A stretch of 64,000 nucleotides of DNA from NCBI RefSeq assembly GCF_005233835.1, contig NZ_SZQA01000015.1, positions 62,001-126,000 of the forward strand, in the 5' to 3' direction. This document shows, piece after piece, positions 41,558-55,419 of the stretch. The stretch comes from Herbidospora galbida. GTDB taxonomy: Bacteria > Actinomycetota > Actinomycetes > Streptosporangiales > Streptosporangiaceae. Within the stretch, counting starts at the first letter, position 1. Each line of letters begins with the position of its first letter. A program made the translations under genes and the position numbers. Under the pieces are notes generated by a model, which was not told the DNA's origin, did no database searches, and saw nothing but the letters and a program-made list of their open reading frames with translations.

Positions 41558-42358
41558 ATGAGCCGCTGCCGCCCCCTGTTACCCCGGGCCGAACTCGACG
41601 CCCGGCTCGACGCCCGCATCGACGCCCGGATCGACGGCGACGCCGTGAGGTGGTCGGTGGTCGTGCCGTCCGCCTGCCGCGCCGCCCACGCGCGGGCCGA
41701 CCGCTTCCGCGTCAAGGTCGGCAGCGTGTCGGGCTACCGCGACACGGTCGACGTCGCCTACGTGCTGCAGCGCGCCCTCCTCCAGCCCGCCGGCGAGAGG
41801 GTGGCCGCGCTCCGGTCCGGGATCATCCGCATGTACGCCGGATCCAAGGACATCGGCGGAGCCCGCGTGCCGGCCTGGCTGCAGGCGGTCATGGACGACC
41901 GCTGGGCCCTGGTCGACGGCGAATGGCGCGAGCTCGACCCCGACCGGTTGGCCGGCGCCCTGGCCCGGATCCGCCCCCTCTTCGGCGCCGACCCCGGCCT
42001 GCCCGCCTGGCATCCGGGCGAGTCGCCCCGCGTCTACGCGGCCAACGCCGGGAACCTCCGCCCCGACCTGCTCGCCCTGCCCGGCGGCGAACTCGGCGAC
42101 CTCCTCACCGCGCGCGGCGACCTGATGTACGTGACCACCGTCGCCGGCCTCGGCCACGTCGCGACCGCCGTCGCGACGGCCGCCCGGAGCCGGTTCGCGG
42201 GCGGGACGCGCCCCTTGCGGGTGGTCTTCGTCGTCCTGTCGGTCACCCCGGTGCCGCCGGAGCGGCTGTTCCCGCTGGTCCGGCTGTCGCTCGCGGACGC
42301 CGCCCGGACGCTCGGCGATCTGGGGGTGGGCGTCGAGGTCGTCATCCACCGTCCGTAA
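41558..42358 (+). CDS. Protein of unknown function divergent from the helicase/RecB-like operon
   Basis: Product of 266 aa with no signal peptide or membrane segment. Near the N-terminus LDARLDARIDARIDG comes from a 12-nt tandem repeat (41594-41629). The middle has YAGSKDIGGARVPAWLQAVM and the end has two beta-alpha stretches (DLMYVTTVAGLGHVATAVAT; LRVVFVVLSVTPVPPERLF). I recognise no family. It shares its control region with the divergent operon, so it may be part of that system, for example a sensor or effector. Start at the ATG at 41558, with a weak GAGA upstream. Confidence 0.7.
   Translation: MSRCRPLLPRAELDARLDARIDARIDGDAVRWSVVVPSACRAAHARADRFRVKVGSVSGYRDTVDVAYVLQRALLQPAGERVAALRSGIIRMYAGSKDIGGARVPAWLQAVMDDRWALVDGEWRELDPDRLAGALARIRPLFGADPGLPAWHPGESPRVYAANAGNLRPDLLALPGGELGDLLTARGDLMYVTTVAGLGHVATAVATAARSRFAGGTRPLRVVFVVLSVTPVPPERLFPLVRLSLADAARTLGDLGVGVEVVIHRP
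41594..41629 (+). repeat. 12-nt tandem repeat inside the 266-aa gene
   Basis: Three consecutive units of the form (C/A)TCGACGCCCG(G/C) encode LDAR-LDAR-IDAR, followed by a partial fourth (IDGD). Being a multiple of three, copy-number changes would keep the frame. Confidence 0.8.
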
Positions 42359-42366
42359 GCAGCGGA

Positions 42367-42384
42367 TATACGCCTGCTATACGC
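42367..42384 (+). promoter_or_regulatory. Direct repeats TATACGC, 11 bp apart, before the NMHWGN peptide genes
   Basis: TATACGC at 42367-42373 and 42378-42384 is an 11-bp-spaced direct repeat, the geometry of SARP-regulator boxes. It lies 42 bp before the first NMHWGN peptide gene. The same heptamer appears in the intergenic region beside the SARP gene (46271-46309). Confidence 0.55.
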
Positions 42385-42425
42385 GGGCGTGCCAGTCTGG
42401 CCTCCCACCTCTGACGGGGGACCAG

Positions 42426-42662
42426 ATGAGAGAAAGAGCAAAAGCGGGCCTGACCGCCGTCGCGCTGACGGTCGGGGCTCTCGGGGCACTCAGCGCGCCC
42501 GCCGCCGCGGAAACGCCGGTCGGCGGGATCATCATCGTCGGGATCACCACCGACCCGACCAAGTACCACTACGACCCCATTGTGTGCGGGGACAACATGC
42601 ACTGGGGCAACCCCGACTGCGGCAACGACATCGACGAGACCTCTCATGGGGGCGCCGAGTGA
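42426..42662 (+). CDS. Secreted NMHWGN peptide 1
   Basis: Product of 78 aa. A clear Sec signal peptide (MRERAKAGLTAVALTVGALG...AAAE) is followed by ~50 aa containing CGDNMHWGNPDC, i.e. C-x2-NMHWGN-x2-C, so a 10-residue loop could close by a disulfide. A GACGGGGG element lies 5-6 nt before the ATG and recurs before peptide 3. It overlaps peptide 2 by GTGA. I know no family with this motif. Possible roles: secreted effector, signalling peptide, toxin, or precursor of a modified peptide, but no modifying enzyme is adjacent. Confidence 0.8.
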   Translation: MRERAKAGLTAVALTVGALGALSAPAAAETPVGGIIIVGITTDPTKYHYDPIVCGDNMHWGNPDCGNDIDETSHGGAE

Positions 42663-43041
42663 ACCTGAAGACCAGTCAGAAGGCCGTGGTCGTCGCCGCG
42701 CTGGCCGCGGGCGCGCTCGGGGTGTTCGGGGCGCCGGCCCTCGCGGCGCCGGGGCCGCTGCCGCCTCCGACGTGCGACTACGCTGTCGACTCCGACGACT
42801 GCGTCGTCCCGCCGGACCCGAACATGCACTGGGGCAACGAACGTCCCAGCGACTGACTCGGCGTGCGCGGGACGGTGTCCCATCCTGACGGGGGATCACC
42901 ATGAAGAAGAGTGTGAAAGCCGGACTGATCGTCGTCACGCTGGCCATCGGCGCACTCGTCGGCCTCGCCGGGCCGGCCGCGGCGGTGCCGTGGAACGAGG
43001 TCATCGTCGACCTGTGCCCGGAGAACATGCACTGGGGCAAC
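42594..43041 (+). repeat. Three copies of an 18-nt element encoding NMHWGN
   Basis: AACATGCACTGGGGCAAC occurs identically at 42594-42611, 42821-42838 and 43024-43041, in frame, near the 3' end of each of the three peptide genes. Sequence around them differs, so either duplication is followed by strong selection on this element or the DNA/RNA itself matters. Confidence 0.9.
42659..42856 (+). CDS. Secreted NMHWGN peptide 2
   Basis: Product of 65 aa from a GTG that overlaps the stop of peptide 1 (GTGA), so translation is probably coupled. Signal peptide (VNLKTSQKAVVVAALAAGALGVFGAPALA) then a Pro-rich ~36-aa mature part ending DPNMHWGNERPSD. It keeps the NMHWGN motif but lacks the bracketing Cys of peptides 1 and 3; instead two Cys lie upstream (TCDYAVDSDDCV). 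This may be a diverged or differently folded member. Confidence 0.7.
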   Translation: MNLKTSQKAVVVAALAAGALGVFGAPALAAPGPLPPPTCDYAVDSDDCVVPPDPNMHWGNERPSD

Positions 43042-43056
43042 GGCGAGTGCGCCTAG
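42901..43056 (+). CDS. Secreted NMHWGN peptide 3
   Basis: Product of only 51 aa: signal peptide (MKKSVKAGLIVVTLAIGALV...AAA), then ~23 aa VPWNEVIVDLCPENMHWGNG-ECA. The C-x2-NMHWGN-x2-C loop matches peptide 1. The leader CTGACGGGGGA lies just upstream, as in peptide 1, indicating duplication of the whole unit. The gene is convergent with the SARP gene. Confidence rests on the shared motif, signal peptide and ribosome-binding site rather than length. Confidence 0.72.
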   Translation: MKKSVKAGLIVVTLAIGALVGLAGPAAAVPWNEVIVDLCPENMHWGNGECA

Positions 43057-43104: not shown

Positions 43105-46100
43105 CTACTCGGGGCGGGGCGTGAGCCTCGCCGCCAGCTTCGCGGCCTCGGGGGAGTCGAGGCCGAGCAGCAGGGAGTGGGCCGTCTCCCACAGGGCCCG
43201 CGCGGCCTCCTCGTCACCCATCCTGCGGAGGGTGACGGCGAGGGCGTCCATTGCGCGGGCCCGCCAGGTCGTGTTGTCCATCTCGGCGAACAACGTCACC
43301 GCTCGTTCGAGAGGGGGCACCGCGGCGCCGAGGTCATCGCCGGACTCGAAGAGGGAGCCGAGTCCGAGAGACGCGCTGGCCTCGGCGAACTGGTCGCCGA
43401 CCCGTTGCGCGGCGGCGACGGCGGCCTTCATCGAGGTCTCGGCCGCGCGCCGTTCGCCGGAGGCGAGCTGCGCCTGCCCGAGGCCGCGCAGCAGGTAGGC
43501 CTCGCCGACGAGGTCGCCGATGGCGCGCACCAGCGGCAGCGCCGCCGCGAACGCGTCGCGCGCCGGTTCGGGGCGCTCCTGCCGGAGGTAGGCGTCGCCG
43601 AGCCGGAACAGCGCCTGCGCCTGGCCGCGCCGGTTGCCGATGTCCTCGAAGGTGCGCAGCGCGTCGCGCAGCAGCGTCTCGGCCTCGGCGAAGACGCCCT
43701 CCTCCAGCCGGATCTGGGCCATCCCGATGCCCGAGTGGGCCTGGGCCGCCCGGTCGCCGGCCTCGCTGAGCAGGTCGGCCGCCTCCTTGTAGCGGTGGTG
43801 GGCCCGCTCGGGGGTGCCGGTGATGCGGTCGAGCAGGGCCAGGTTGCGCAGCGCCAGCCCCACGCCGTGGTCGGCGCCGAGCGCCTCGAACCGGGCCGAG
43901 GAGTCTTCGAGCAGTTCGGCCGCCGTCGCGTACTCCTGCCGGAACAGGGCCAGGCTGCCCAGTCCGTACACCATCGCGGCCTCTCCGAGCGCGTCGCCCG
44001 CGGCGCGGGCGGCGGCGAGCGCGACCTCGTGGGTGGACCGCCAGTCGTCGAACAGGCTGCGCGCCTCGAACAGCGTCACGCACGTCATCGCGAGCTCCCA
44101 GGCGAGCGAGGCCAGCCCCAGGTCGGCGGCCTGCGAGACGGCCGACACGAGGCCGGCCCGCTCGGCGGCCAGCCACTCGATCGGCTCGCCCAGCAGCGCG
44201 TCGGCCAGCGCCGGATCGGGCGCCCGGCGCGGCGTGCTCCCGCGCAGCACGGCGAAGTCGCCGCCGTACTCGCGCCGGTGGGCCTCCTGCGCCAGCGACA
44301 GCCAGAGGTTGAGCGAGCGGCCCATCGCGGCGGCGCGGGCGGCGTCGTCGTCCTCCTCCAGCGCGCGTTCGCGGGCGAACAGGCGGACCAGGTCGTGGAA
44401 GCGGTAACGCACCCCGCCCGCGCCCTCCTGCGCCACCACTTCGAGCAGCTGCGCCGCGACGAGCTGCTCGAACAGCTCCCCGAGGGGCTCGCGGCCGATG
44501 CCGAGCAGCGGTCCGCCGGCCCATTCGCCGAAGTCGGGCACGCCGAGCAGGCTCAGCCGCCGGAACAGCGTCGCCGCCGCCGGGTCGAGGTCGCGGTAGC
44601 TGAGCCCGAAGTTGGCCCGCACCCGCACCCCGCCGTGGCTGAGCTCGCTGAGCCGGTTCCGCTCGTCGGCCAGGTGCCCGGCCAGGACGCCCGCGGTGAG
44701 GCGGCTGCGCCCGGCCAGCCGGGCCCCGGCGATGCGCAGCGCCAGCGGCAGCCCGCCGCACAGCTCGCTCAGCCGGGCCAGTTCGGGGTCGGCCCGGTCG
44801 ACCGCGCCACCGGCGAGGCCCGCGAGCACGGCCACGCCCTCCAGGTCGCCGAGGGTGCCGACCTGGAGGATGTCGGCGCGTTCCTGCGCCACCAGCCCGT
44901 CGAGCCCGTCGCGGCTGGTCACCATGACCGCGCACCCGGGGGAGCCGGGCAGCAGCGGCCTGACCTGGCCGGCGTCGCGGGCGTTGTCGAGCACGAGCAG
45001 CACCCGCCGCCGCGACAGCACGCTGCGCAGCAGCCCGGCCCGCTCGTCGACGTCGTCGGGGATCCGGCTGCCCGGCACGCCGAGCGCCCGCAGGAACCGG
45101 TCGACCACCTGCCGGGGCGCCAGCGGTTCGGCGTCCTCGGCGTAGCCGCGCAGGTCGACGTAGAGCTGGCCGTCGGCGAAGCGGCCGGAGACCCGGTGGG
45201 CCCAGTGGACCGCAAGGCCCGTCTTGCCGACGCCGCCCATGCCGGTGAGCCCGAGGAAGGCCGGCACGCCCTGGCTCTGCCGCAGGTCGAGCAGCCGGTC
45301 GAGCTCGCCGAGCTCCTCGGCCCGGCCGACGAAGTCGGCGACGTCGTGGGGGAGCTGCGCGGGCGTGGGGAACAGGGTCGGCCCGGTCTTGGGCTCGGCC
45401 GGGCGCGGCGCGGGCACGCCGGAGTCGCCGCGCAGGATCTCCTCGTGCAGCGCCCGCAGTTCGGCGCCGGGTTCGAGCCCGAGCTCGCCGATGAGGACGC
45501 GCCGTCCCTCGCGGAAGGTCTCCAGCGCCTCGGCTCGCCGCCCGGCCCGGTGGAGGGCGAGCATCAGGTGGGCGCGCAGCCGTTCGCGGGTCGGGTGCTC
45601 GGCGACCAGGCCGGTGAGTTCGCCGATGAGGTCCTCGTGGCGGCCCAGCGCCAGGTCGGCGGTGATCCGCAATTCGGCCGCCCGTAACCGCGCCTCTTCC
45701 AGGCGGGTTGCGGCGGGCCAGATCGCGGGGTGGTCGGCGAGGTTGCCGTACGCCGGTCCGCGCCACATCTCCAGGGCCCTGGCCAGCAGCCGCCGCCCGG
45801 TGGCGGGGTCGCCCCCGTTCATCGCCCGCGCGCCCTCGGCCGTGAGGGCCTCGAAGTCGGCCGCGTCGAGCTCGCCGGGGCCGACCGCCAGGGCGTAGCC
45901 GGAGGGGTGGCGGACCACCCGGTCGCGGTCTCCCAGGGCCTTGCGCAGGTGGTAGACGTACAGGCGGAGGTTCTCGTGCGCCGAGGCCGGCGGTTCCTCC
46001 CACAGCGCCCCGATCAGGCGGGAACCCGCCGTGGGAGCGTTGGCGTTGCCGATCAGCACGGCCAGCAGCAGCCGTTGCTTCTCCGACCGCAGCGGCACCT

Positions 46101-46149
46101 GCGCGCCGTCGATCGTGATGTCGAGGGGACCGAGAACGCGAAGCCTCAT
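43105..46149 (-). CDS. SARP regulator with NB-ARC and TPR domains (AfsR-like)
   Basis: Product of 1014 aa. Residues 1-95: OmpR-type winged helix (MRLRVLGPLDI...ENLRLYVYHLRKAL). Residues ~100-245: bacterial transcriptional activation domain. Residues ~280-560: NB-ARC ATPase with GMGGVGKT and VLLVLDNARDA. Residues ~650-1010: tetratricopeptide repeats. This is the large SARP architecture of actinomycetes, which activates antibiotic and other clusters by binding direct heptamer repeats. I chose the ATG at 46149 (GAAGG upstream) over a GTG two codons earlier. It lies between the NMHWGN peptides and the secreted Rhs pair, and TATACGC repeats on both sides suggest it controls one or both. Confidence 0.92.
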   Translation of the reverse strand: MRLRVLGPLDITIDGAQVPLRSEKQRLLLAVLIGNANAPTAGSRLIGALWEEPPASAHENLRLYVYHLRKALGDRDRVVRHPSGYALAVGPGELDAADFEALTAEGARAMNGGDPATGRRLLARALEMWRGPAYGNLADHPAIWPAATRLEEARLRAAELRITADLALGRHEDLIGELTGLVAEHPTRERLRAHLMLALHRAGRRAEALETFREGRRVLIGELGLEPGAELRALHEEILRGDSGVPAPRPAEPKTGPTLFPTPAQLPHDVADFVGRAEELGELDRLLDLRQSQGVPAFLGLTGMGGVGKTGLAVHWAHRVSGRFADGQLYVDLRGYAEDAEPLAPRQVVDRFLRALGVPGSRIPDDVDERAGLLRSVLSRRRVLLVLDNARDAGQVRPLLPGSPGCAVMVTSRDGLDGLVAQERADILQVGTLGDLEGVAVLAGLAGGAVDRADPELARLSELCGGLPLALRIAGARLAGRSRLTAGVLAGHLADERNRLSELSHGGVRVRANFGLSYRDLDPAAATLFRRLSLLGVPDFGEWAGGPLLGIGREPLGELFEQLVAAQLLEVVAQEGAGGVRYRFHDLVRLFARERALEEDDDAARAAAMGRSLNLWLSLAQEAHRREYGGDFAVLRGSTPRRAPDPALADALLGEPIEWLAAERAGLVSAVSQAADLGLASLAWELAMTCVTLFEARSLFDDWRSTHEVALAAARAAGDALGEAAMVYGLGSLALFRQEYATAAELLEDSSARFEALGADHGVGLALRNLALLDRITGTPERAHHRYKEAADLLSEAGDRAAQAHSGIGMAQIRLEEGVFAEAETLLRDALRTFEDIGNRRGQAQALFRLGDAYLRQERPEPARDAFAAALPLVRAIGDLVGEAYLLRGLGQAQLASGERRAAETSMKAAVAAAQRVGDQFAEASASLGLGSLFESGDDLGAAVPPLERAVTLFAEMDNTTWRARAMDALAVTLRRMGDEEAARALWETAHSLLLGLDSPEAAKLAARLTPRPE

Positions 46150-46270
46150 CGCCACCTTCGGGGGTGATCTCCGGGAGTGAGATGCACCTTACCGGTCGAT
46201 CGTTATATGTGCCTTATCCATTATCGGATCGGGTCAAGAGCCCTATATCCCACGAAACTCCACAAGGGTA

Positions 46271-46309
46271 TATACGCCTCTCACGTCGCCTATACGGCAA
46301 AAATACGCC
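46271..46309 (+). promoter_or_regulatory. TATACGC-type repeats between the SARP and secreted LamG genes
   Basis: TATACGCC (46271), TATACGGC (46291) and AATACGCC (46302) lie in the 207-bp gap between the divergent SARP and LamG genes; the last two are 11 bp apart. The unit equals the repeat before the NMHWGN peptides (42367). They are likely SARP boxes. Confidence 0.5.
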
Positions 46310-46356: not shown

Positions 46357-49029
46357 GTGGTGTCCCGATCGCGGACGGCCTCGTTAGCCGTCCTTCTCTC
46401 CCTTTCCGCCGTAGTGACGACCCTCGTGGCCACGCCCGCCCCGGCGTCGGCCGTCCCCGTTCCGATCCCCACCGCACCGACGTGCGTCTCGGCCGCCGAC
46501 AACCCCGACGGAGCCGCCGGGATGGCCGCCCAGTGCGGCACCGAGGTCGAGGTGCTCTCGGAGCGCACCGAGACCAGCCAGGTCTTCGCCCAGCCCGACG
46601 GCACGATGGAGGCCGTCACCTCCCTCTTCCCGACCCAGGTCGTCAAGAACGGCGTCTGGACCGACGTCGACACCAACCTGCGCCTGGTCGGCGGGGTGAC
46701 CCCGGTCGCGACCTCCGCCGACGTGCGCTTCTCCACCGGCGGCGCCGACCCGATGGTGACCCTCACCGAGGGCGCCGCCTCCGTCCGGATCAAGTCGCCG
46801 TGGAACCTTCCCGCGCCCACGCTCAACGGGGACACCGCGACCTACGCCGATGTGCTGCCCGGGGTCGACCTGCAGTTGCGGGCCGAACCCGACGGCTTCT
46901 CGCAGTTCCTCGTGGTGAACACGCCTGAGGCGGCCGCCAACTCCGAACTCGCCCGGATCGGGTTCCCGGTGGAGGCGTCCGGCGGGGCGTCGATCCGGGA
47001 GAACGAGTCGGCCCTGGAGGTCGTCGACGCGGCCGGGAACGTTCTCTTCGCGTCGGGCTCGGCGCTCATGTGGGACGCCGACGGCGCCGGAGACGAGGGC
47101 GCCGACAGCGCGCCCGGCCGCACCGCCGAGATGGACGTCGAGGTGAGCGCGCACGAGCTCGTCGTGGTGCCCGACCAGGCCCTGCTGACCGACCCCGGCG
47201 CGACCTTCCCGATCTACATCGACCCGGCGTTCAGCAAGCCCAGCATGGGCGGCAACTGGACCCACACCAACAGCTGCTCGCCCGGCACCAGCTTCTACAC
47301 CAGCTACCGCAGCGAGCTGCGGGTCGGCCGCCAGTGGAACACCTCGTGCAAGTGGCGGGCCTACATGCGGTTCGACACCGCCCAGCTGGCCGGCGCGACG
47401 ATCCAGGCCGCCGAGTTCGCGGTGACCGCCGACCACGTCGCCAACTGCGCGGGCGCCAACACCAACCTGCTGTTCCGCAACAACATCTCCGCGATGAACA
47501 CCGCGACCTGGAACAGCACCAGCAGCGGCAACGTGCAGACCATCGGCACCGAGAAGTTCGACGCCAACGAGTCGAGCTGCCCCTCGGGCGACCAGAAGAA
47601 GGTGTACGACGACGGCAGCGCCAGGGTGCTGGAAGGCCGGATGCAGAGCCAGGCCAACGCCCGCGCCTCGCAGACCACCTTCGCGCTCATCTCCTCGGAC
47701 GAGGGCGACCACATGGGGTGGAGCAACTTCATCCCCGGCTCGGTGGCGCTGATCATCACGTACAACCACACCCCGACGACGCCGACCTCGCTGAAGATCA
47801 CCACCGACTGCGGCATCTCCTGCGCCTGGGTCCGCTCGGGCACGCCCACGCTGTCGGCGGTCGCCGCCGACCCCAACGGCGGCACCCTGTCCCGGGTCGA
47901 GTTCGAGGTGTACGACCGCGCCCGCAGCAGCCGCAAGGCCGCCTCGGGCTCGGCCGTCTCCAACCGCACCTCGGGTCAGGCCGCGCCGTGGAAGGTCACC
48001 CCGGCGCTGCCCGAAGGGGCCTACTCCTGGCGGGTCCGGGGCTGTGACGCCTACGTCTGCGGCGGCTGGGGCGGCTGGTTCGACTTCACCGTCGACACCA
48101 CCGCGCCCACCAACGTGAGCGTGACCTCGGCGGAGTACCCGCCCGCGAGCGACGGCACCTGGAACGGCGCCGCCGGCCAGGCGGGCACGTTCGCGATCGG
48201 CGCGTCCGGGGCCAACCGCTTCGAGCTGACCCTCAACGGCGTGAACAAGGGCTGGGTGAACACCACCGGCGACGTCTGGACCGGCTCGCTGACCCCCGAC
48301 CGCGACGGCGTCAACCTGCTCACCGCCCGCGCCGCCGACGCGGCCGGCAACGTCGCGGGCAGCCCGTTCACCTACGAGTTCCTGGTCCGCCCGGTCCCGG
48401 CCAAGGCCATCGGGTGGGGATTCAACGAGGCGTCCGGCACCACCGCCGCCTCCGACCCCGCCGGGACCACGCTCGACAGCAAGGCCGGTCCGGCCGCCCG
48501 CACCGCCGGCAGGAGCGGCGGCTACGCCCTCAATCTCGACGGCGCGTCGGCGTGGGCGTCCACCCAGCCGGTCGTCGACACCAAGACGCCCTTCACCGTG
48601 ACCGCCCTGGTGAAGCTGAACTCCACCACCGTGAGCGGCCCGATCACGGCCGTCTCCTCCCACGGCGCGACCGGCTCGGGCTTCCGCCTCGGCTACCGCT
48701 CCGAGGGCTGGTGCTTCTCCATGTACGCCGCCGACGGCGGCGCCGAGACCAAGGCCTGCTCCACCGAGTCGGTCGGCACCGGCTGGACCCACCTGGCCGG
48801 CGTCTACGACGGCACCCGCCTGCGGATCTACGTCAACGGCCTGAACTGGGAGGAGGCCGACCAGGTGCCCTTCACCTCGACGTGGTCGGCGACCCAGGGC
48901 TGGTCGGTCGGCCGCGCCAAGGACGCCGGCGCCCTCACGCAGTACTGGACCGGCGCCGTCGACAGGGTGGGCGCCTACCAGAAGGCACTGACCCAGAGTG
49001 AGATCGTCACGGACGGAGCCAAGGGATGA
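46357..49029 (+). CDS. Secreted DNRLRE/LamG-type protein
   Basis: Product of 890 aa. The signal peptide ends about residue 33 (APASA). Residues ~50-280 form a beta-rich N-terminal region; ~280-470 resembles DNRLRE (WRAYMRFDTAQLAGATIQAA); ~480-690 has Ig-like segments with TVDTTAPTNVSV; ~700-885 is a LamG/concanavalin-like domain (GSGYALNLDGAS-like GGYALNLDGASAWA and WTHLAGVYDGTRLRIYVNG). Such proteins accompany the large secreted Rhs proteins of actinomycetes. Start GTG at 46357 with GAGGAG upstream; the end overlaps the Rhs gene by ATGA, so the two are made together. Confidence 0.8.
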   Translation: MVSRSRTASLAVLLSLSAVVTTLVATPAPASAVPVPIPTAPTCVSAADNPDGAAGMAAQCGTEVEVLSERTETSQVFAQPDGTMEAVTSLFPTQVVKNGVWTDVDTNLRLVGGVTPVATSADVRFSTGGADPMVTLTEGAASVRIKSPWNLPAPTLNGDTATYADVLPGVDLQLRAEPDGFSQFLVVNTPEAAANSELARIGFPVEASGGASIRENESALEVVDAAGNVLFASGSALMWDADGAGDEGADSAPGRTAEMDVEVSAHELVVVPDQALLTDPGATFPIYIDPAFSKPSMGGNWTHTNSCSPGTSFYTSYRSELRVGRQWNTSCKWRAYMRFDTAQLAGATIQAAEFAVTADHVANCAGANTNLLFRNNISAMNTATWNSTSSGNVQTIGTEKFDANESSCPSGDQKKVYDDGSARVLEGRMQSQANARASQTTFALISSDEGDHMGWSNFIPGSVALIITYNHTPTTPTSLKITTDCGISCAWVRSGTPTLSAVAADPNGGTLSRVEFEVYDRARSSRKAASGSAVSNRTSGQAAPWKVTPALPEGAYSWRVRGCDAYVCGGWGGWFDFTVDTTAPTNVSVTSAEYPPASDGTWNGAAGQAGTFAIGASGANRFELTLNGVNKGWVNTTGDVWTGSLTPDRDGVNLLTARAADAAGNVAGSPFTYEFLVRPVPAKAIGWGFNEASGTTAASDPAGTTLDSKAGPAARTAGRSGGYALNLDGASAWASTQPVVDTKTPFTVTALVKLNSTTVSGPITAVSSHGATGSGFRLGYRSEGWCFSMYAADGGAETKACSTESVGTGWTHLAGVYDGTRLRIYVNGLNWEEADQVPFTSTWSATQGWSVGRAKDAGALTQYWTGAVDRVGAYQKALTQSEIVTDGAKG

Positions 49030-52000
49030 GGAAACCGGCCGCGTTACTGATCGCCCTCGTACTGTCGGGGGCCGGAATCGTCAGCGGGGGGACGGCCAAC
49101 GCCCTCGCCGACTGGGAGCCCCCGGTCCCGGTCGACGTCACCCCCGTCCCCGTCGAGGACAACACGCGGCGCACCGTCGCCGAGACGGCCCAGCCGCCCC
49201 GGGTCAAGGGACCCTCGACCATCGTCTGGCCGGCCGACACCGCCGCCCAGATCACCCCCGGCGCGCGGGCCGTCTCGGGCCAGGCGGTCACGGTCGCCGC
49301 GGCCTCCTCGGTGGGGCGGGTCGGGGTCCGGGTGTACGGCCGCGCCGCCGCCGAGACCGCCGGGATCAGCGGCGTCATGATGTCGGTGGCCCGCAGCGAC
49401 GGCCAGAAGTCGACCGGCACGGTCGGCGTCAACCTCGACTACTCCCAATTCGCCGGCGCCTACGGCGGCGACTGGGCCAGCCGCCTGCGGCTCGTCCAGC
49501 TCCCGGCCTGCGCTCTGACCACCCCCGGCGCGAAGGGCTGCGGCCTGGACGCCGCCGTCCCCGTGGACGCCAGGAACGACGCCGCGACGCAGACCCTCAC
49601 GGCCGACGTCGCCCTCCCGGCCGGCGGCGCGCCCCAGCTGCTGGCGGCCGCGGCCGCCCCGGCGGGGCCGAACGGCGACTACAAGGCGACGTCGCTGACC
49701 CCGGCCTCGACGTGGCAGGTGTCGCAGCAGACCGGCGCGTTCTCGTGGAAGTACCCGATCAAGAGCCCGCCCGCCGTCGGGGGCCCGTCGCCCTCGCTGG
49801 CCTTCTCGTACTCGTCGCAGGCGGTCGACGGCAAGACCTCGGGCCAGAACGGGCAGGGGTCGTGGGTCGGCGACGGCTGGGACATGTGGACCGGCTTCAT
49901 CGAGCGGACGTACAAGAGCTGTCTCGACGACACCAAGGCGGTCGGCGGCAAGGACCCGAACAACAAGGACAAGAAGACCGGCGACCAGTGCTGGTGGAAG
50001 CCCAACGCCACCATGAGCCTGAACGGCAGCTCGACGGAGCTGATCGACCTGGGCGGCGGCAAGTGGAAGGGCACCGGCGACGACGGCTCCCGCGTCGAGC
50101 TGCTCCCGGACGCCTCCAACGGCGTCTACAACGGTGAGCACTGGAAGGTCACCACGATCGACGGCACCCAGTACTTCTTCGGGCGCCGCACCGACTCGGC
50201 CTGGACCACCCAGGTGTACGGCAACCACCCCGGCGACCCCGGCTACGAGTCCGGCGACTTCGCCGGCAGCCGCGAGACCCAGGCCTGGCGCTGGAACCTC
50301 GACTACGTGGTCGACCCGCACGGCAACACGATGACGCTGAACTACGGCAAGGAGACCGGCGCCTACGGCCGCGAGTTCGACGCCGACAAGCGCCAGACCT
50401 ACGATCGCGGCGGCTACCTGACCACGATCGACTACGGCACCCGCACCGACCAGTCGACCGCCTCCTCGCGGATCGCGTTCGAGGTGGCCGACCGCTGCCT
50501 GGCCGGCGCGACCTGCTTCGACTCGGGCGGCAAGGCGGTCGCGGCGTCGTGGCCGGACGTGCCGTGGGACCAGTACTGCCGCGACAAGTGCACCGAGCAG
50601 ATGTCGCCCACGTTCTGGACGCAGAAGCGGCTGGCCGTGGTGCGCGCCCAGGTGCGCGACGGCAGCGGCTTCCGCACCGTGGAGTCGTGGACGCTGAAGC
50701 ACTCGTGGCTCAACGCGGGGGTCAGCCAGAACGAGGGCGTGCCCATGTGGCTCGACTCGATCACCCACGCGGGTTCGGGCATCAAGGGCGGCGCGACGGT
50801 CACCGACCCCGCCGTCACGTTCTCGCCCGGCGCCGACCCGTTCCCCAACCGGGTCGACGGCGCCGACGACGGCCGGACCGCGCTCAACCGCTTCCGGATC
50901 GTCTCGATCACCACCGAGACCGGCGCCCAGATCGGCGTCACCTACCTGCCGAGCGACTGCACCCGCAGCTCCCTGCCCTCGGTCCACTCCAACGGCAAGC
51001 GCTGCTTCCCGCAGTGGGCGACGCAGGACGGCACCGATCCGACCCTCGACTGGTTCAACAAGTACGTGGTCAAGCGCATCGACCTGTACGACAACGGCGG
51101 CGGCTTCACCCACGAGCAGACCAACTACGACTACCTCGACACCCCGATGTGGAAGTACGACGACAGCGAGCTCGTCGAGGAGAAGAAGCGCACCTGGGGC
51201 CAGTGGCGCGGCTACGGCCACGTCCGGGTCAGGGTCGGCCTGGAGACCGGGCCGCAGTCGGTCACCGAGTACCGCTACTTCCGCGGCATGGACGGCGACA
51301 AGCAGCCCGACGACAAGGTCCGCGACGTCTGGGTGAAGGACAGCCTCGACGGCACCGGCGACGCCCACTCCAAGCGCATCGAGGACCACGACGCCTACCA
51401 GGGCCAGCTGCGCGAGCAGACCACCTTCGACGGCGTCGGCGGCCAGTGGATCAGCGGCAAGCTCACCGAGCCCGGCTTCACCCAGACCGGCGCGTCGGGG
51501 GCGCTCAAGGCGTACATGGTGCACACGCCGGTGCAGCTGACCCGCACCCGGCTCGCCGACGGCCGGACCCAGTGGTCGAAGGTGCTGACCAAGGTCAACG
51601 CCGAGAACCTGCCGACCGAGGTCAGCGACCTCGGCGACGAGTCCACGGCGGCCGACGACCAGTGCACCAAGACGTCCTACGTCCACAACGGCACCCTGTG
51701 GATCAAGGACAAGGTGCTCCAGACCGACCAGTACGGCGTCGCCTGCTCCGTCACCCCCGCCGTCCCCGGCGACGTGATCATGCAGGAGCGCAACTACTAC
51801 GACGACGCGACCAAGCCGCTCGGCACCGCGCCGACCCGCGGCCTGGTGGTCAAGGAGGAGGAGCTCAAGGGCTGGAGCGGCGCCACCCCGCAGTGGTTCG
51901 CGGTCACCACCACCACCTACGACGCCAACGGGCGCGCGACCTCGGCCACCGACTCCCTGAACCGGACGACCAAGACCCAGTACATCCCGGACAAGGCCGG

Positions 52001-55000
52001 TCCGGTCACCGAGGTGAAGACGACCAACGCGCTCGACCACACGGCCTCCTCGCTGATGGAGGCGGCCTGGCAGGTGCCGACCACCATCACCGACGCGGGC
52101 GGGCGCAAGACCGAGCTCGAGTACGACGGCGCGGGCCGGCTGACCAAGGTGTGGCTGCCGGGCCGCACCAGGAGCCAGGACGCCAACCTCCTGTACGCCT
52201 ACAAGGTGCGCAACACCGCGCCGTCGGTCACCACCACGAAGAAGCTGCTCCCCGACGGCACCGGGCGCTACCAGACCTCGACCGTGCTGTTCGACGCGCT
52301 GCTGCGCCAGCGTCAGGCGCAGAGCCAGGCGGTCGGCGGCGGCCGGGTCATCGCCGACACCGTCTACGACTCGCGCGGCCTGGTCGAGTGGACCTCCGAG
52401 CCCTACTACCACGACACCGCCGGGCCGGGTGAGGCCATCGCGGTGCCGACCAAGGCGATCCCCTCGGTCACCGCCAACACCTACGACGGCGCGGGCCGGG
52501 TCACCAAGGCCGAGTTCAAGGCCTACGGCGTGACCAAGTGGGCGACCACGACGGCGTACACCGGGACGGGCACGGTCGTCACCCCGCCGATCGGCGGGAC
52601 CAAGACCGAGACCGTCCAGGACGCCAGGGGCCGGACCGTCGAACTGCGCCAGTTCCACTCGTTCACGGCGGCCACCTACGACCGGACCCTGTACACCTAC
52701 ACCGACAAGGGCGACCTGGCGACCATCACCGACCAGGCCGGGAACGTCTGGCGCAACACCTACGACGTGCGCGGCAACAAGATCAAGCTGGAGGACCCCG
52801 ACAAGGGCGTCAGCGAGCAGACCTTCGACACGACCGGGCAGCTCACCAGCGTCAAGGACGCGCGGGGAGAGGTCCTCGCGTACACCTACGACCCGCTGGG
52901 CCGCAAGACCGCGCTGCGGGAGGACTCGGCGACCGGCCCGCTGCGCTCCGAGTGGCTGTACGACACCGCCCCCGGCGGCCTCGGCAAGCCCGCCGGCTCG
53001 ATCAGGTACAACGGCGCCGCCAAGTACTCGACCCTGATCAGCGGCTACGACACCGGCGGCTACGCCACCGGCATGACGGTCACCCTGCCCTCCGAGACGG
53101 GCGCGCTGGCCCGGACGTACGAGTACAAGACCACCTACAAGCAGGACGGCCAGCCCGCCTCGCTGACCCTGCCGGCCGTCGGCAACCTGCCCGAGGAGAA
53201 GCTCGAGTACGGCTACAACGCGGTCGGCAAGCAGTCGTACATCAAGAGCGGCGTGCAGATCTACGTCAACGACACCGTCTACAACCAGATCGGCGGGCGC
53301 ATCCAGCGCATCCTCGGTCAGGACGACAAGCGGGTCTGGCAGACCGACACCTGGGACGAGCCCACCGGCCGCCTGGTGACCAGCTCGACGACCCCGGAGC
53401 TGAAGAACCAGACGGCCAACTTCAACTACGAGTACGACCAGATGGGCTCGGTCATCAAGGTCAGCGACCGGCCGAACGGCGGCCAGCAGGCCGACCACCA
53501 GTGCTTCACCACCGACCACCTGCGCCGCATGACCGAGGCCTGGACCCCCGCCGGCGGGAACTGCGACCCGGCCGCCCGTTCGGCCACCACGCTCGGCGGC
53601 CCGGCGCCCTATTGGCACAGCTACGCGTACACGACCACCGGCAGCCGGGACACCGAGACCTGGCGCACCGCCACCACCACGACGATCCGCGACTTCGTCC
53701 AGCCCGCCCAGGGCGGCGCGGCCGGCAGCAAGCCGCACGCCGTGACCCGGGTCGACAAGTCCACCGGCGGCTCGGACACCTACGCCTACGACGAGGCCGG
53801 CAACATGAACAGCCGGACCGTCAACGGCGCCGCCACCACCCTCACCTGGGACGCGGAAGGTGATCTGGCCACCACCGTCCAGAACGGCCAGTCCACCTCC
53901 TACCTGTACGACACCGAGGGCGCCCGCCTGATCCGCAAGGAGCCCGGCTCCATCACCGCCTACCTGCCGCACGGCCAGGAGGTGAAGGCGGTCGGCACCG
54001 CGGTGACCGGCACCCGCTACTACATGCAGGGCGACGACACCGTCGCGGTGCGGACCGGGACCGGCCTCACCGGCCTGCTGTGGCTGACCCAGGACCACCA
54101 CAACACGGCCGAGGCGATGATCAAGGCCGCGGACCTGTCGGCCACCCGCAAGCGCAGCCTTCCCTTCGGCGCCCAGCGCGGCGCCAACCCGGCCTTCTGG
54201 GCGGGGGAGAAGGGCTTCGTCGGCGGTACGAACGACCCCACGGGCCTGGTCAACATCGGGGCCCGCGACTACGACCCGCTGCTCGGCGCCTTCATCAGCG
54301 TCGACCCGGTCATCGACCCGCTCGACCCGCAGCAGATGCACGGCTACAGCTACTCCAACGGCAACCCGCTGACCTTCACCGACCCCGACGGCCTGCTGTT
54401 CGGGATCAAGAAGCCGGAGTGGATGAACAAGGTCACCAACGTGGCGAAGGCGGTCGCCACCACCGTGGCCAGCCCCGTCGTCAGCGCGGCCAAGGGCACC
54501 GGGAAGTTCCTCTGGGAGCACTCCGGCAAGATCTCCGCGGTCACCGGGTACGCGGCGATGGCCGCCGCGATGATCCCCGGCGGCCAGCCGTTCGCGGCGG
54601 TGCTCGGGGCGGTCTCCACCGTGACCGGCATCATCGACACGGTGAAGTCGTGCAAGGAGGGCAAGAAGGTCGACTGCGCCGTGGGCGCGGCCGGGCTCGT
54701 GCCGGTCGTCGGCAAGGCGCTCGCCAACGGCCCCGCCAAGAACGCCGCCAAGAAGGCGATCAGAGAGGCGGACGCAAAGATCCAGGCCAGAAGACAGGAC
54801 GTCACCATCGACGAGGCCGTCATGGGGCACGCCAAACCCGGCATGAACGTCGACGTCGAGGCCGAGCGGCTCTACCAGAACCGCCTCAAGATGATCCAGG
54901 CCCAGAAGGACCGCGAACGGGCGCTCGCGGCGCAGGCCAGGGCCCGCGCCCGGGACCGGTCGTGGGACACCTGGGGCACCGCGATGAACGTCGAGAACGG

Positions 55001-55124
55001 CTACAACGAGGTCTGCAAGGGCTACCGCATCTGCCACGAGCGGGAGGTCTTCGTCCCGGCGGTCGTCAAGACGGTGACGAGCCCGCCCCGGCGGTTCCGC
55101 ATTCCGCCGCAGTTCCTCTGGTAA
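49026..55124 (+). CDS. Secreted Rhs-repeat polymorphic-toxin-type protein
   Basis: Product of 2032 aa. Signal peptide (MRKPAALLIALVLSGAGIVS...ALA). Residues ~200-950 are the beta-rich SpvB/TcdB-like and wall-type N-terminal region. From ~950 many YD/Rhs repeats follow (e.g. YTDKGDLATITDQAGNVWRN and YDPLGRKTALRE). The Rhs-associated core ends at GYSYSNGNPLTFTDPDGL (~1773-1788). The remaining ~244 aa are the variable tip: a hydrophobic segment near 1830-1870 (VTGYAAMAAAMIPGGQPF), then a Lys/Arg/Glu-rich helical part and a C-terminal end with CKGYRICHE. I recognise no toxin fold. Rhs shells usually carry a toxin in this tip. No clear immunity gene follows. Confidence 0.9.
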   Translation: MRKPAALLIALVLSGAGIVSGGTANALADWEPPVPVDVTPVPVEDNTRRTVAETAQPPRVKGPSTIVWPADTAAQITPGARAVSGQAVTVAAASSVGRVGVRVYGRAAAETAGISGVMMSVARSDGQKSTGTVGVNLDYSQFAGAYGGDWASRLRLVQLPACALTTPGAKGCGLDAAVPVDARNDAATQTLTADVALPAGGAPQLLAAAAAPAGPNGDYKATSLTPASTWQVSQQTGAFSWKYPIKSPPAVGGPSPSLAFSYSSQAVDGKTSGQNGQGSWVGDGWDMWTGFIERTYKSCLDDTKAVGGKDPNNKDKKTGDQCWWKPNATMSLNGSSTELIDLGGGKWKGTGDDGSRVELLPDASNGVYNGEHWKVTTIDGTQYFFGRRTDSAWTTQVYGNHPGDPGYESGDFAGSRETQAWRWNLDYVVDPHGNTMTLNYGKETGAYGREFDADKRQTYDRGGYLTTIDYGTRTDQSTASSRIAFEVADRCLAGATCFDSGGKAVAASWPDVPWDQYCRDKCTEQMSPTFWTQKRLAVVRAQVRDGSGFRTVESWTLKHSWLNAGVSQNEGVPMWLDSITHAGSGIKGGATVTDPAVTFSPGADPFPNRVDGADDGRTALNRFRIVSITTETGAQIGVTYLPSDCTRSSLPSVHSNGKRCFPQWATQDGTDPTLDWFNKYVVKRIDLYDNGGGFTHEQTNYDYLDTPMWKYDDSELVEEKKRTWGQWRGYGHVRVRVGLETGPQSVTEYRYFRGMDGDKQPDDKVRDVWVKDSLDGTGDAHSKRIEDHDAYQGQLREQTTFDGVGGQWISGKLTEPGFTQTGASGALKAYMVHTPVQLTRTRLADGRTQWSKVLTKVNAENLPTEVSDLGDESTAADDQCTKTSYVHNGTLWIKDKVLQTDQYGVACSVTPAVPGDVIMQERNYYDDATKPLGTAPTRGLVVKEEELKGWSGATPQWFAVTTTTYDANGRATSATDSLNRTTKTQYIPDKAGPVTEVKTTNALDHTASSLMEAAWQVPTTITDAGGRKTELEYDGAGRLTKVWLPGRTRSQDANLLYAYKVRNTAPSVTTTKKLLPDGTGRYQTSTVLFDALLRQRQAQSQAVGGGRVIADTVYDSRGLVEWTSEPYYHDTAGPGEAIAVPTKAIPSVTANTYDGAGRVTKAEFKAYGVTKWATTTAYTGTGTVVTPPIGGTKTETVQDARGRTVELRQFHSFTAATYDRTLYTYTDKGDLATITDQAGNVWRNTYDVRGNKIKLEDPDKGVSEQTFDTTGQLTSVKDARGEVLAYTYDPLGRKTALREDSATGPLRSEWLYDTAPGGLGKPAGSIRYNGAAKYSTLISGYDTGGYATGMTVTLPSETGALARTYEYKTTYKQDGQPASLTLPAVGNLPEEKLEYGYNAVGKQSYIKSGVQIYVNDTVYNQIGGRIQRILGQDDKRVWQTDTWDEPTGRLVTSSTTPELKNQTANFNYEYDQMGSVIKVSDRPNGGQQADHQCFTTDHLRRMTEAWTPAGGNCDPAARSATTLGGPAPYWHSYAYTTTGSRDTETWRTATTTTIRDFVQPAQGGAAGSKPHAVTRVDKSTGGSDTYAYDEAGNMNSRTVNGAATTLTWDAEGDLATTVQNGQSTSYLYDTEGARLIRKEPGSITAYLPHGQEVKAVGTAVTGTRYYMQGDDTVAVRTGTGLTGLLWLTQDHHNTAEAMIKAADLSATRKRSLPFGAQRGANPAFWAGEKGFVGGTNDPTGLVNIGARDYDPLLGAFISVDPVIDPLDPQQMHGYSYSNGNPLTFTDPDGLLFGIKKPEWMNKVTNVAKAVATTVASPVVSAAKGTGKFLWEHSGKISAVTGYAAMAAAMIPGGQPFAAVLGAVSTVTGIIDTVKSCKEGKKVDCAVGAAGLVPVVGKALANGPAKNAAKKAIREADAKIQARRQDVTIDEAVMGHAKPGMNVDVEAERLYQNRLKMIQAQKDRERALAAQARARARDRSWDTWGTAMNVENGYNEVCKGYRICHEREVFVPAVVKTVTSPPRRFRIPPQFLW

Positions 55125-55149: not shown

Positions 55150-55419
55150 ATGAGTGCCGAGATCAGCCGAGAAGTCATCGAAAGGTTCCTGGTCGGGGGC
55201 CGCCTGGTGCAGATGCCCGCGAAACACGCGGTGCGCCTGGCGGTCCTCGACCGCGTCGCCCAGTCGTTCGAGATCGGCGTGCGCTACTCCGAGAAGGAGG
55301 TCAACGAGGTCCTCGCCGGTTTCTTCGACGACTACGCCGCCCTGCGCCGCTACCTCATCGATAATGACCTGTTGTCCAGGGAGGACGGGGTCTACTGGCG
55401 CAGTGGCGGCACCGTCTGA
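55150..55419 (+). CDS. DUF2087 protein after the Rhs gene
   Basis: Product of 89 aa. The pattern FLVGGRLVQMPAKHAVRLAV ... YSEKEVNEVLAGFFDDYAAL then RRYLIDNDLLSREDGVYWR is the DUF2087 domain, often fused to ArsR-type regulators. Here it stands alone. It starts 25 bp after the Rhs stop, the place where an immunity gene would be, but the family is not known as an immunity protein; a regulator is more likely. It is expressed in the same direction and may be a passenger. Confidence 0.85.
   Translation: MSAEISREVIERFLVGGRLVQMPAKHAVRLAVLDRVAQSFEIGVRYSEKEVNEVLAGFFDDYAALRRYLIDNDLLSREDGVYWRSGGTV

Follow-up and report, generated by a model that had tools for sequence, protein, structure and literature searches.

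RRNPP signals are re-imported into the cell, where TPRs bind the pheromones of the Rap type. As a survey of these systems describes them, Rap-Phr, PlcR-PapR, NprR-NprX and AimR of Firmicutes each pair a small Sec-exported precursor with a cytosolic TPR protein encoded beside it (PMC10075063). The signal is a short, linear core that in most cases consists of the final 4-10 residues, and duplications within the precursor gene are frequent; by default RRNPP_detector accepts receptors of 250-500 aa, and the survey made with it covered Firmicutes and viruses (PMC10075063).

Large SARPs, AfsR among them, are built from BTAD, NB-ARC and TPR parts. In the published account of AfsR, SARPs bind direct repeats with an 11-bp pitch, the 3' repeat lying 8 bp before the -10 element (PMC10936776; see also PMC10972967). 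The same account has the NB-ARC and TPR parts of AfsR hold back its SARP domain and likens the protein to the STAND activators MalT and GutR, which need an inducer and ATP; the TPR of AfsR is tentatively its sensor, with inducer binding described as elusive (PMC10936776). The TPR superhelix of kinesin light chain, a eukaryotic cargo adaptor, is described as recognising short tryptophan peptides with acidic neighbours. NosP is a small SARP without NB-ARC or TPR, and its ligand comes from a thiopeptide precursor. It is reported to respond to peptidyl ligands from the nosiheptide precursor and offers a precedent for a peptide-sensing SARP (PMC10972967).

Here we describe three small secreted ORFs next to a large SARP gene in a 64,000-nucleotide stretch of Herbidospora galbida DNA (the window). 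Judging from the sequences, they are probably the precursors of one autoinducing peptide signal, sensed in an RRNPP-like manner by the TPR of the SARP, a STAND receptor. We found no such system, be it NMHWGN, related cores or SARP-peptide signalling, in the literature covered, a scope that leaves aside most subscription papers and all bioRxiv preprints.

Three precursor genes and their NMHWGN core

The array consists of the following features.

42426..42662, plus strand: precursor 1, ATG start, 78 aa, signal peptide and a 50-aa mature part with C-GD-NMHWGN-PD-C
42594..42611, plus strand: core NMHWGN of precursor 1 (pattern search)
42659..42856, plus strand: precursor 2, GTG start, 65 aa, signal peptide and a 36-aa mature part in which two Cys precede NMHWGN
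42821..42838, plus strand: core NMHWGN of precursor 2 (pattern search)
42901..43056, plus strand: precursor 3, ATG start, 51 aa, signal peptide and a 23-aa mature part with C-PE-NMHWGN-GE-C
43024..43041, plus strand: core NMHWGN of precursor 3 (pattern search)

As the original prediction stated, three small ORFs lie in tandem, and each encodes a signal peptide and the hexapeptide NMHWGN. Signal peptides were called by a rule of our own (basic n-region, hydrophobic core, A-x-A-like site) rather than by SignalP. The genes of precursors 1 and 2 overlap by 4 nt, the GTG start of the second lying over the stop of the first. In length and signal peptide, all three products fit the 10-100 aa Sec-exported precursors of RRNPP systems. 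A degenerate pattern for the motif never matched when the window was shuffled 100 times, and its only exact matches in the 8.3-Mb genome are these three. Pfam holds no family for precursors 1-3, and NCBIfam gave nothing above its curated cut-offs for them or for seven related precursors.

Between genomes G000 and G006, the pooled pN/pS ratio is 0.60 in frame, with single pairs spanning 0.28 to 1.04, while the shifted frames give 0.93 and 1.27; most likely, then, the three ORFs are translated. In alignments of six orthologues per precursor, no column of the core varies (0 of 6), whereas the rest of the mature part varies at 27 of 43, 20 of 30 and 12 of 18 columns for precursors 1, 2 and 3, gaps being scored as variable and G001, whose two precursors are not assignable, being left out. 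By these alignments, the conservation signal is the invariant residues of the core and not its nucleotides. The 18 nt of the motif, AACATGCACTGGGGCAAC, are indeed exactly the same in all three genes, as had been pointed out, but this identity is not evidence in itself: codon use in five ORFs of the window is so biased (AAC 0.99, CAC 0.92, GGC 0.74) that the same six residues, encoded three times independently, would match in nucleotides with P = 0.31. The identity is thereby ruled out as evidence of recent copying or special selection.

Peptides 1 and 3 contain the frame C-x2-NMHWGN-x2-C, in which the disulfide loop suggested for it could form. The loop is not essential: precursor 2 and its orthologues lack the closing Cys, and the spacing varies elsewhere. 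As the defining feature of the peptides, the loop is ruled out by the precursor 2 type.

All seven Herbidospora genomes searched, our own included, carry 2-4 copies of the motif at one place per genome, beside the same gene, the SARP; the conservation of neighbours that had been put forward as a check thus holds in 7 of 7. Precursor 3 has a 92% match over 50 residues in Herbidospora solisilvae (NZ_WXEW01000013.1). In this genus, the core copies are spread over 2-4 separate genes rather than repeated within one precursor. The exact pattern occurs in 9 of 341 family genomes. Homologues beyond the genus, the other check, are few when the exact motif is required: 2 of 334 family genomes (G085, G179), in which a signal peptide is followed by C-NMHWGN with another Cys spacing, C-NMHWGN-x5-C. 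Both have SARP genes, to which the peptide gene is again convergent, and core variants are common beside related SARPs; confinement of the peptides to the genus is ruled out.

Further ORFs accompany the array. Just upstream, at 41558-42358 (plus strand), a 266-aa protein matches residues 226-361 of the 524-residue DUF6119 profile, and DUF6119-like ORFs were seen by eye at the same place in other loci of the genus. At two loci (L141 of G003, L035 of G002), the array also encodes, on its upstream side, a small secreted peptide that ends in GVLAGHIAVD and has no tryptophan core.

A convergent large SARP and its relatives

Only 48 nt separate the stop codon of the array from that of the adjacent regulator gene.

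43105..46155, minus strand: large SARP regulator, 1016 aa, with BTAD, NB-ARC and TPR (Pfam), convergent with the peptide genes; proposed receptor

The order of its domains in Pfam (BTAD, NB-ARC, TPR) is that of the large SARPs, with a C-terminal TPR matched by TPR_12 at 1e-23; Trans_reg_C is found along with BTAD and NB-ARC, and there is no HTH_3 (PF01381). Its solved homologue is AfsR (8jke/8k60). It is not AfsR itself, scoring 549.8 bits with the AfsR equivalog NF053617, the cut-off of which is 1430. The TPR profile matches AfsR and, more weakly, kinesin light chain and Rap proteins, groups whose TPRs are described as including known peptide binders; the match to kinesin light chain is generic TPR similarity.

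Compared with RRNPP systems, the adjacency of precursor and receptor genes is shared, at 48 nt in the window and at most 420 nt at 32 of 89 related SARPs. On the other hand, the receptor has 1016 aa instead of 250-500 aa, it has NB-ARC, and its DNA-binding part is OmpR/BTAD instead of HTH_3, the genes are convergent, the phylum is different, and the NMHWGN of Herbidospora is internal, not C-terminal as usual in RRNPP precursors. Because of receptor size and DNA-binding domain, we regard the system as RRNPP-like and not as an RRNPP member. RRNPP_detector would miss it owing to its default receptor size and the taxa surveyed.

To see how often such a SARP has a peptide neighbour, we used the TPR part of the SARP as query against 150 genomes of the family, which gave 90 places in 57 genomes; 89 of the 3' flanks were examined, the remaining one (G192) being at a contig end. 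The filter accepted ORFs of 30-110 aa with a signal peptide and a Shine-Dalgarno-like sequence, at most 420 nt from the SARP stop. A convergent small secreted ORF was found at 32 of the 89 flanks, and in 31 of these a tryptophan stands among the final 25 residues of the mature part, L113 being the single exception; co-directional ORFs of this kind number 0 of 89. Without the 11 genus flanks, the counts are 26 of 78 convergent, 25 with tryptophan. Zones further out from the SARP stop gave 5 and 1 convergent matches. At other gene ends, the same test gave 2 of 93, both parts of this system, in a control of nine stretches, seven of them representing this locus in a single genus, that used a simple ORF caller and skipped six gene ends. 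The filter left 57 of the 89 flanks without a peptide; at L037 and L094 one is visible by eye below the cut-offs, and L064 was missed with the protein match extending past the SARP stop codon.

The cores found in the family include CNMHWGT, NFHWT, CDSHWM, CDSTWM, ADTHW x2, NDKWI, GDMWG, MPWV and GPPWG x3. A search across the class added 19 loci for inspection, 15 outside the family and 4 inside it: three of the 15 have a peptide (DDPWV/I x4, DDPWV x3, DTNPWD x1), as does one of the four (SDPWG x3). L151, with EVPWT repeats, was found under relaxed criteria. One large genus of this class appears to be Streptomyces-like, and 26 of its 246 genomes have a match to the SARP. There, convergent secreted peptides occur at 13 of 25 new loci, always with two or more core copies (DDMPWG, DDPWT, EVPWT or D(D/N)LPWT-like), three loci carry a co-directional secreted peptide ending SWH or DWH, and nine carry none. 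A tblastn search of plasmids with one DDMPWG precursor returned no match. The pairing of peptide and SARP is not universal, as seen from the 57 of 89 family flanks and 9 of 25 Streptomyces-like loci without a peptide by these filters, and from our own genome, where six of the eight further SARP-like matches were inspected and none had a secreted tryptophan peptide at its 3' end.

Two departures from the usual arrangement were noticed. At L196, L204 and L205, large SARPs of the Streptomyces-like genus are followed by co-directional secreted peptides with the ending DESWH or EEDWH; this looks like an alternative layout built on the same idea. In G179 (L026, 7051-8666, minus strand), the SARP is split into two open frames and has no NB-ARC; the peptide gene and its exact TATACG box (described below) are intact.

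We aligned the peptides on their tryptophan in a set of 54 mature parts; near-duplicates (L034-L036, L048 and most precursors from the rest of the genus) were left out, as were L113 and the co-directional and relaxed cases, similar Streptomyces-like rows were kept, and some mature starts were trimmed by eye. Position -3 is D or N in 43 of the 54, and position -1 is P or H in 45. From these preferences, NMHWG aligns with DMPWG. The last tryptophan is the final or penultimate residue in 32, the xW core is repeated in 21, and the Cys count is zero or two in 53.

In a tree of 67 TPR regions, the sampled NMHWGN receptors form one clade that includes G085 and G179 (support 100/99); the receptors of CNMHWGT and MPWV/G adjoin it with weaker support (91/61). 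On a tree of 51 receptors, the residues round the tryptophan require 18 changes, against 31-39 in 300 shuffles that ignore the relatedness of rows. As far as these trees go, core class follows receptor phylogeny, which is co-inheritance and by itself not proof of binding.

Promoter repeats and further putative targets

Repeats with the layout of SARP operators lie ahead of the array and of a second gene group.

42367..42384, plus strand: presumed SARP operator TATACGC-N4-TATACGC with spacer CTGC, a heptamer repeat with 11-bp pitch ahead of the array
42393..42398, plus strand: candidate -10 element CAGTCT, at a distance of exactly 8 nt from the second heptamer
46291..46308, plus strand: another presumed SARP operator, TATACGG-N4-AATACGC, preceding the LamG and RHS genes
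46357..49029, plus strand: LamG/Ig-like protein (Pfam Laminin_G_3) with a signal-peptide-like start, proposed regulon member
49026..55124, plus strand: RHS/YD-repeat protein, 2032 aa (family search), proposed regulon member

At the peptide promoter, the sequence has the complete layout of a large-SARP operator: heptamers, 11-bp pitch and 8 bp to the predicted -10 element. The box TATACG-N5-TATACG has a single exact match in the 8.3-Mb genome, the one ahead of the array. All seven genomes of the genus have it in exact form at their peptide locus, with 20 sites in total against 1 for the reversed pattern. With one mismatch allowed, our own genome has 8 sites against 2 for the reversed control, so that single one-mismatch boxes are weak evidence. 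Boxes with 0-1 mismatch also precede the peptide genes of G085 and G179 and of paralogous SARPs of G001 and G003. A CAnnCT-like hexamer lies 8 nt past the second repeat at the array promoters and is absent at the two paralogue promoters.

Outside the genus, other tryptophan peptides have different heptamers with the same 11-bp pitch. Among 32 upstream regions, 15 have a repeat at this pitch with 6-7 of 7 matches (at most 10 in shuffles, at most 11 at other pitches, the next highest being 12 bp with 11 of 32), and 6 have a perfect one (at most 2 in shuffles and 3 at other pitches, the 20-bp pitch giving 3).

The box at 46291-46308 has one mismatch in the two hexamers, and its heptamers are identical in those five of the seven genus genomes where LamG and RHS genes occupy this place. 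The last 374 residues of the RHS protein contain no Pfam domain and no known toxin domain. A polymorphic toxin with a switching tip is ruled out: over its C-terminal 242 residues, the protein is 86-95% identical to its counterparts in G002-G005.

Several other genes occur near such boxes or in place of the LamG and RHS genes. By eye, an exact TATACG box precedes a large secreted-looking protein with an RHS N-terminal-like sequence at L131 and L127 (G002:C3, G004:C7), and three TATACG hexamers with 11-bp pitch precede an NRPS adenylation-like gene at L123 and L126 (G001:C5, G003:C9). At L027 and L030 (G001, G006) there are no LamG or RHS genes beside the SARP and, again by eye, an ORF like the DUF2087 gene of the window, which follows RHS at 55150-55419, stands there instead. 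The GVLAGHIAVD peptide of G003 has an exact box of its own. So does a further secreted precursor, L142 (G003:C24 near 76439, minus strand), whose mature part starts with DMHW and continues with eight units (A/G)W(V/I/M)GP, possibly another multi-copy signal of the same locus.

A proposed peptide circuit and its alternatives

We propose that the precursors leave the cell through Sec and are trimmed by proteases to a short NMHWGN-containing peptide, which would re-enter the cell, export, cutting and re-import proceeding as in RRNPP systems. The peptide would then bind in the groove of the TPR sensor of the SARP (43105-46155), as TPRs are described to bind tryptophan-acidic peptides in kinesin light chain, and lift the inhibition of its DNA-binding part. 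The activated SARP may turn on promoters of the TATACGC-N4-TATACGC type, which belong to the peptide array and to the LamG and RHS genes; with an operator at the peptide promoter, the circuit would be one of positive feedback. These steps of processing, import, binding and activation are what we infer. Whereas the inducer of AfsR is elusive, SARPs of the present group often have a gene for a candidate ligand beside them. The inducers of MalT and GutR are maltotriose and glucitol, whereas the one proposed here is a gene-encoded peptide. Among the roles first considered for the peptides (signals, antimicrobials, or substrates of a modifying enzyme), signalling is thus the best supported, by way of the neighbouring large SARP and its relatives.

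The main competitor is a locus of regulator plus target, in which the peptides are secreted effectors, for example antimicrobial or antagonistic ones, under control of a SARP that senses something else. The operator-like repeat at the peptide promoter is expected of any target, the same co-inheritance of core and receptor would be expected for a mere target gene beside its regulator, and the same kind of box stands ahead of large secreted-looking proteins. The peptides themselves give some further grounds: exactly two Cys are present in 12 of 12 NMHWG peptides of the 54-peptide set, as would fit a bacteriocin of small size with a disulfide, and the lactococcin 972 bacteriocin family matches one precursor of the CDSHWM class, though below threshold (E 0.026, 14.8 bits, cut-off 32.1). 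However, 29 of the 54 peptides have no Cys at all, only the core is invariant among orthologues, and short tandem cores, 4-6 residues long and joined by free linkers, are more in keeping with a linear ligand released by processing than with a folded effector. Weighing both sides, we consider an effector role unlikely, yet the first alternative to keep in mind beside a signal.

The gene afsS is likewise a small neighbour of AfsR. A role modelled on it, with the peptides acting on the producing cell as secreted structural or regulatory factors and no cell-to-cell signal, would agree with the activation of afsS by AfsR, as reported for that regulator (PMC10936776). We hold it to be very improbable: signal peptides and multi-copy cores point outwards, AfsS is not known to be a secreted protein, and the SARP of the window is far under the AfsR equivalog cut-off.

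Least credible of all are precursors of a modified peptide (RiPP) with tailoring enzymes elsewhere, to which the short conserved core, rich in W and H, and a sub-threshold, probably generic similarity of the SARP to HaaT, the TPR protein of cyclophane RiPP systems (303.5 bits, cut-off 1125), could be fitted, but whose leaders are not Sec-type signal peptides, with no modifying enzyme among the family-searched neighbours in the window and no family above its curated cut-off for the precursors tested.

Returning to the peptide signal, we lean, a little less firmly than for the locus itself, towards a general reading of the survey: actinomycetes, Streptomyces-like ones included, may have widespread peptide signals with a core [DN]-x-[HP]-W-x, each sensed by a dedicated STAND-type SARP, in a class separate from RRNPP that would control secreted RHS proteins and perhaps metabolite genes.

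If this is true, many large SARPs gain their missing inducer. SARPs activate antibiotic gene clusters; should their ligands be short peptides encoded next door, a synthetic peptide could switch on silent regulators, and the idea is cheap to test, the core being readable from the genome. Actinobacterial signalling has been described in terms of cyclic or modified peptides and gamma-butyrolactones (PMC4748050). The present system would establish a linear-peptide language in that phylum, by which its bacteria may sense each other.
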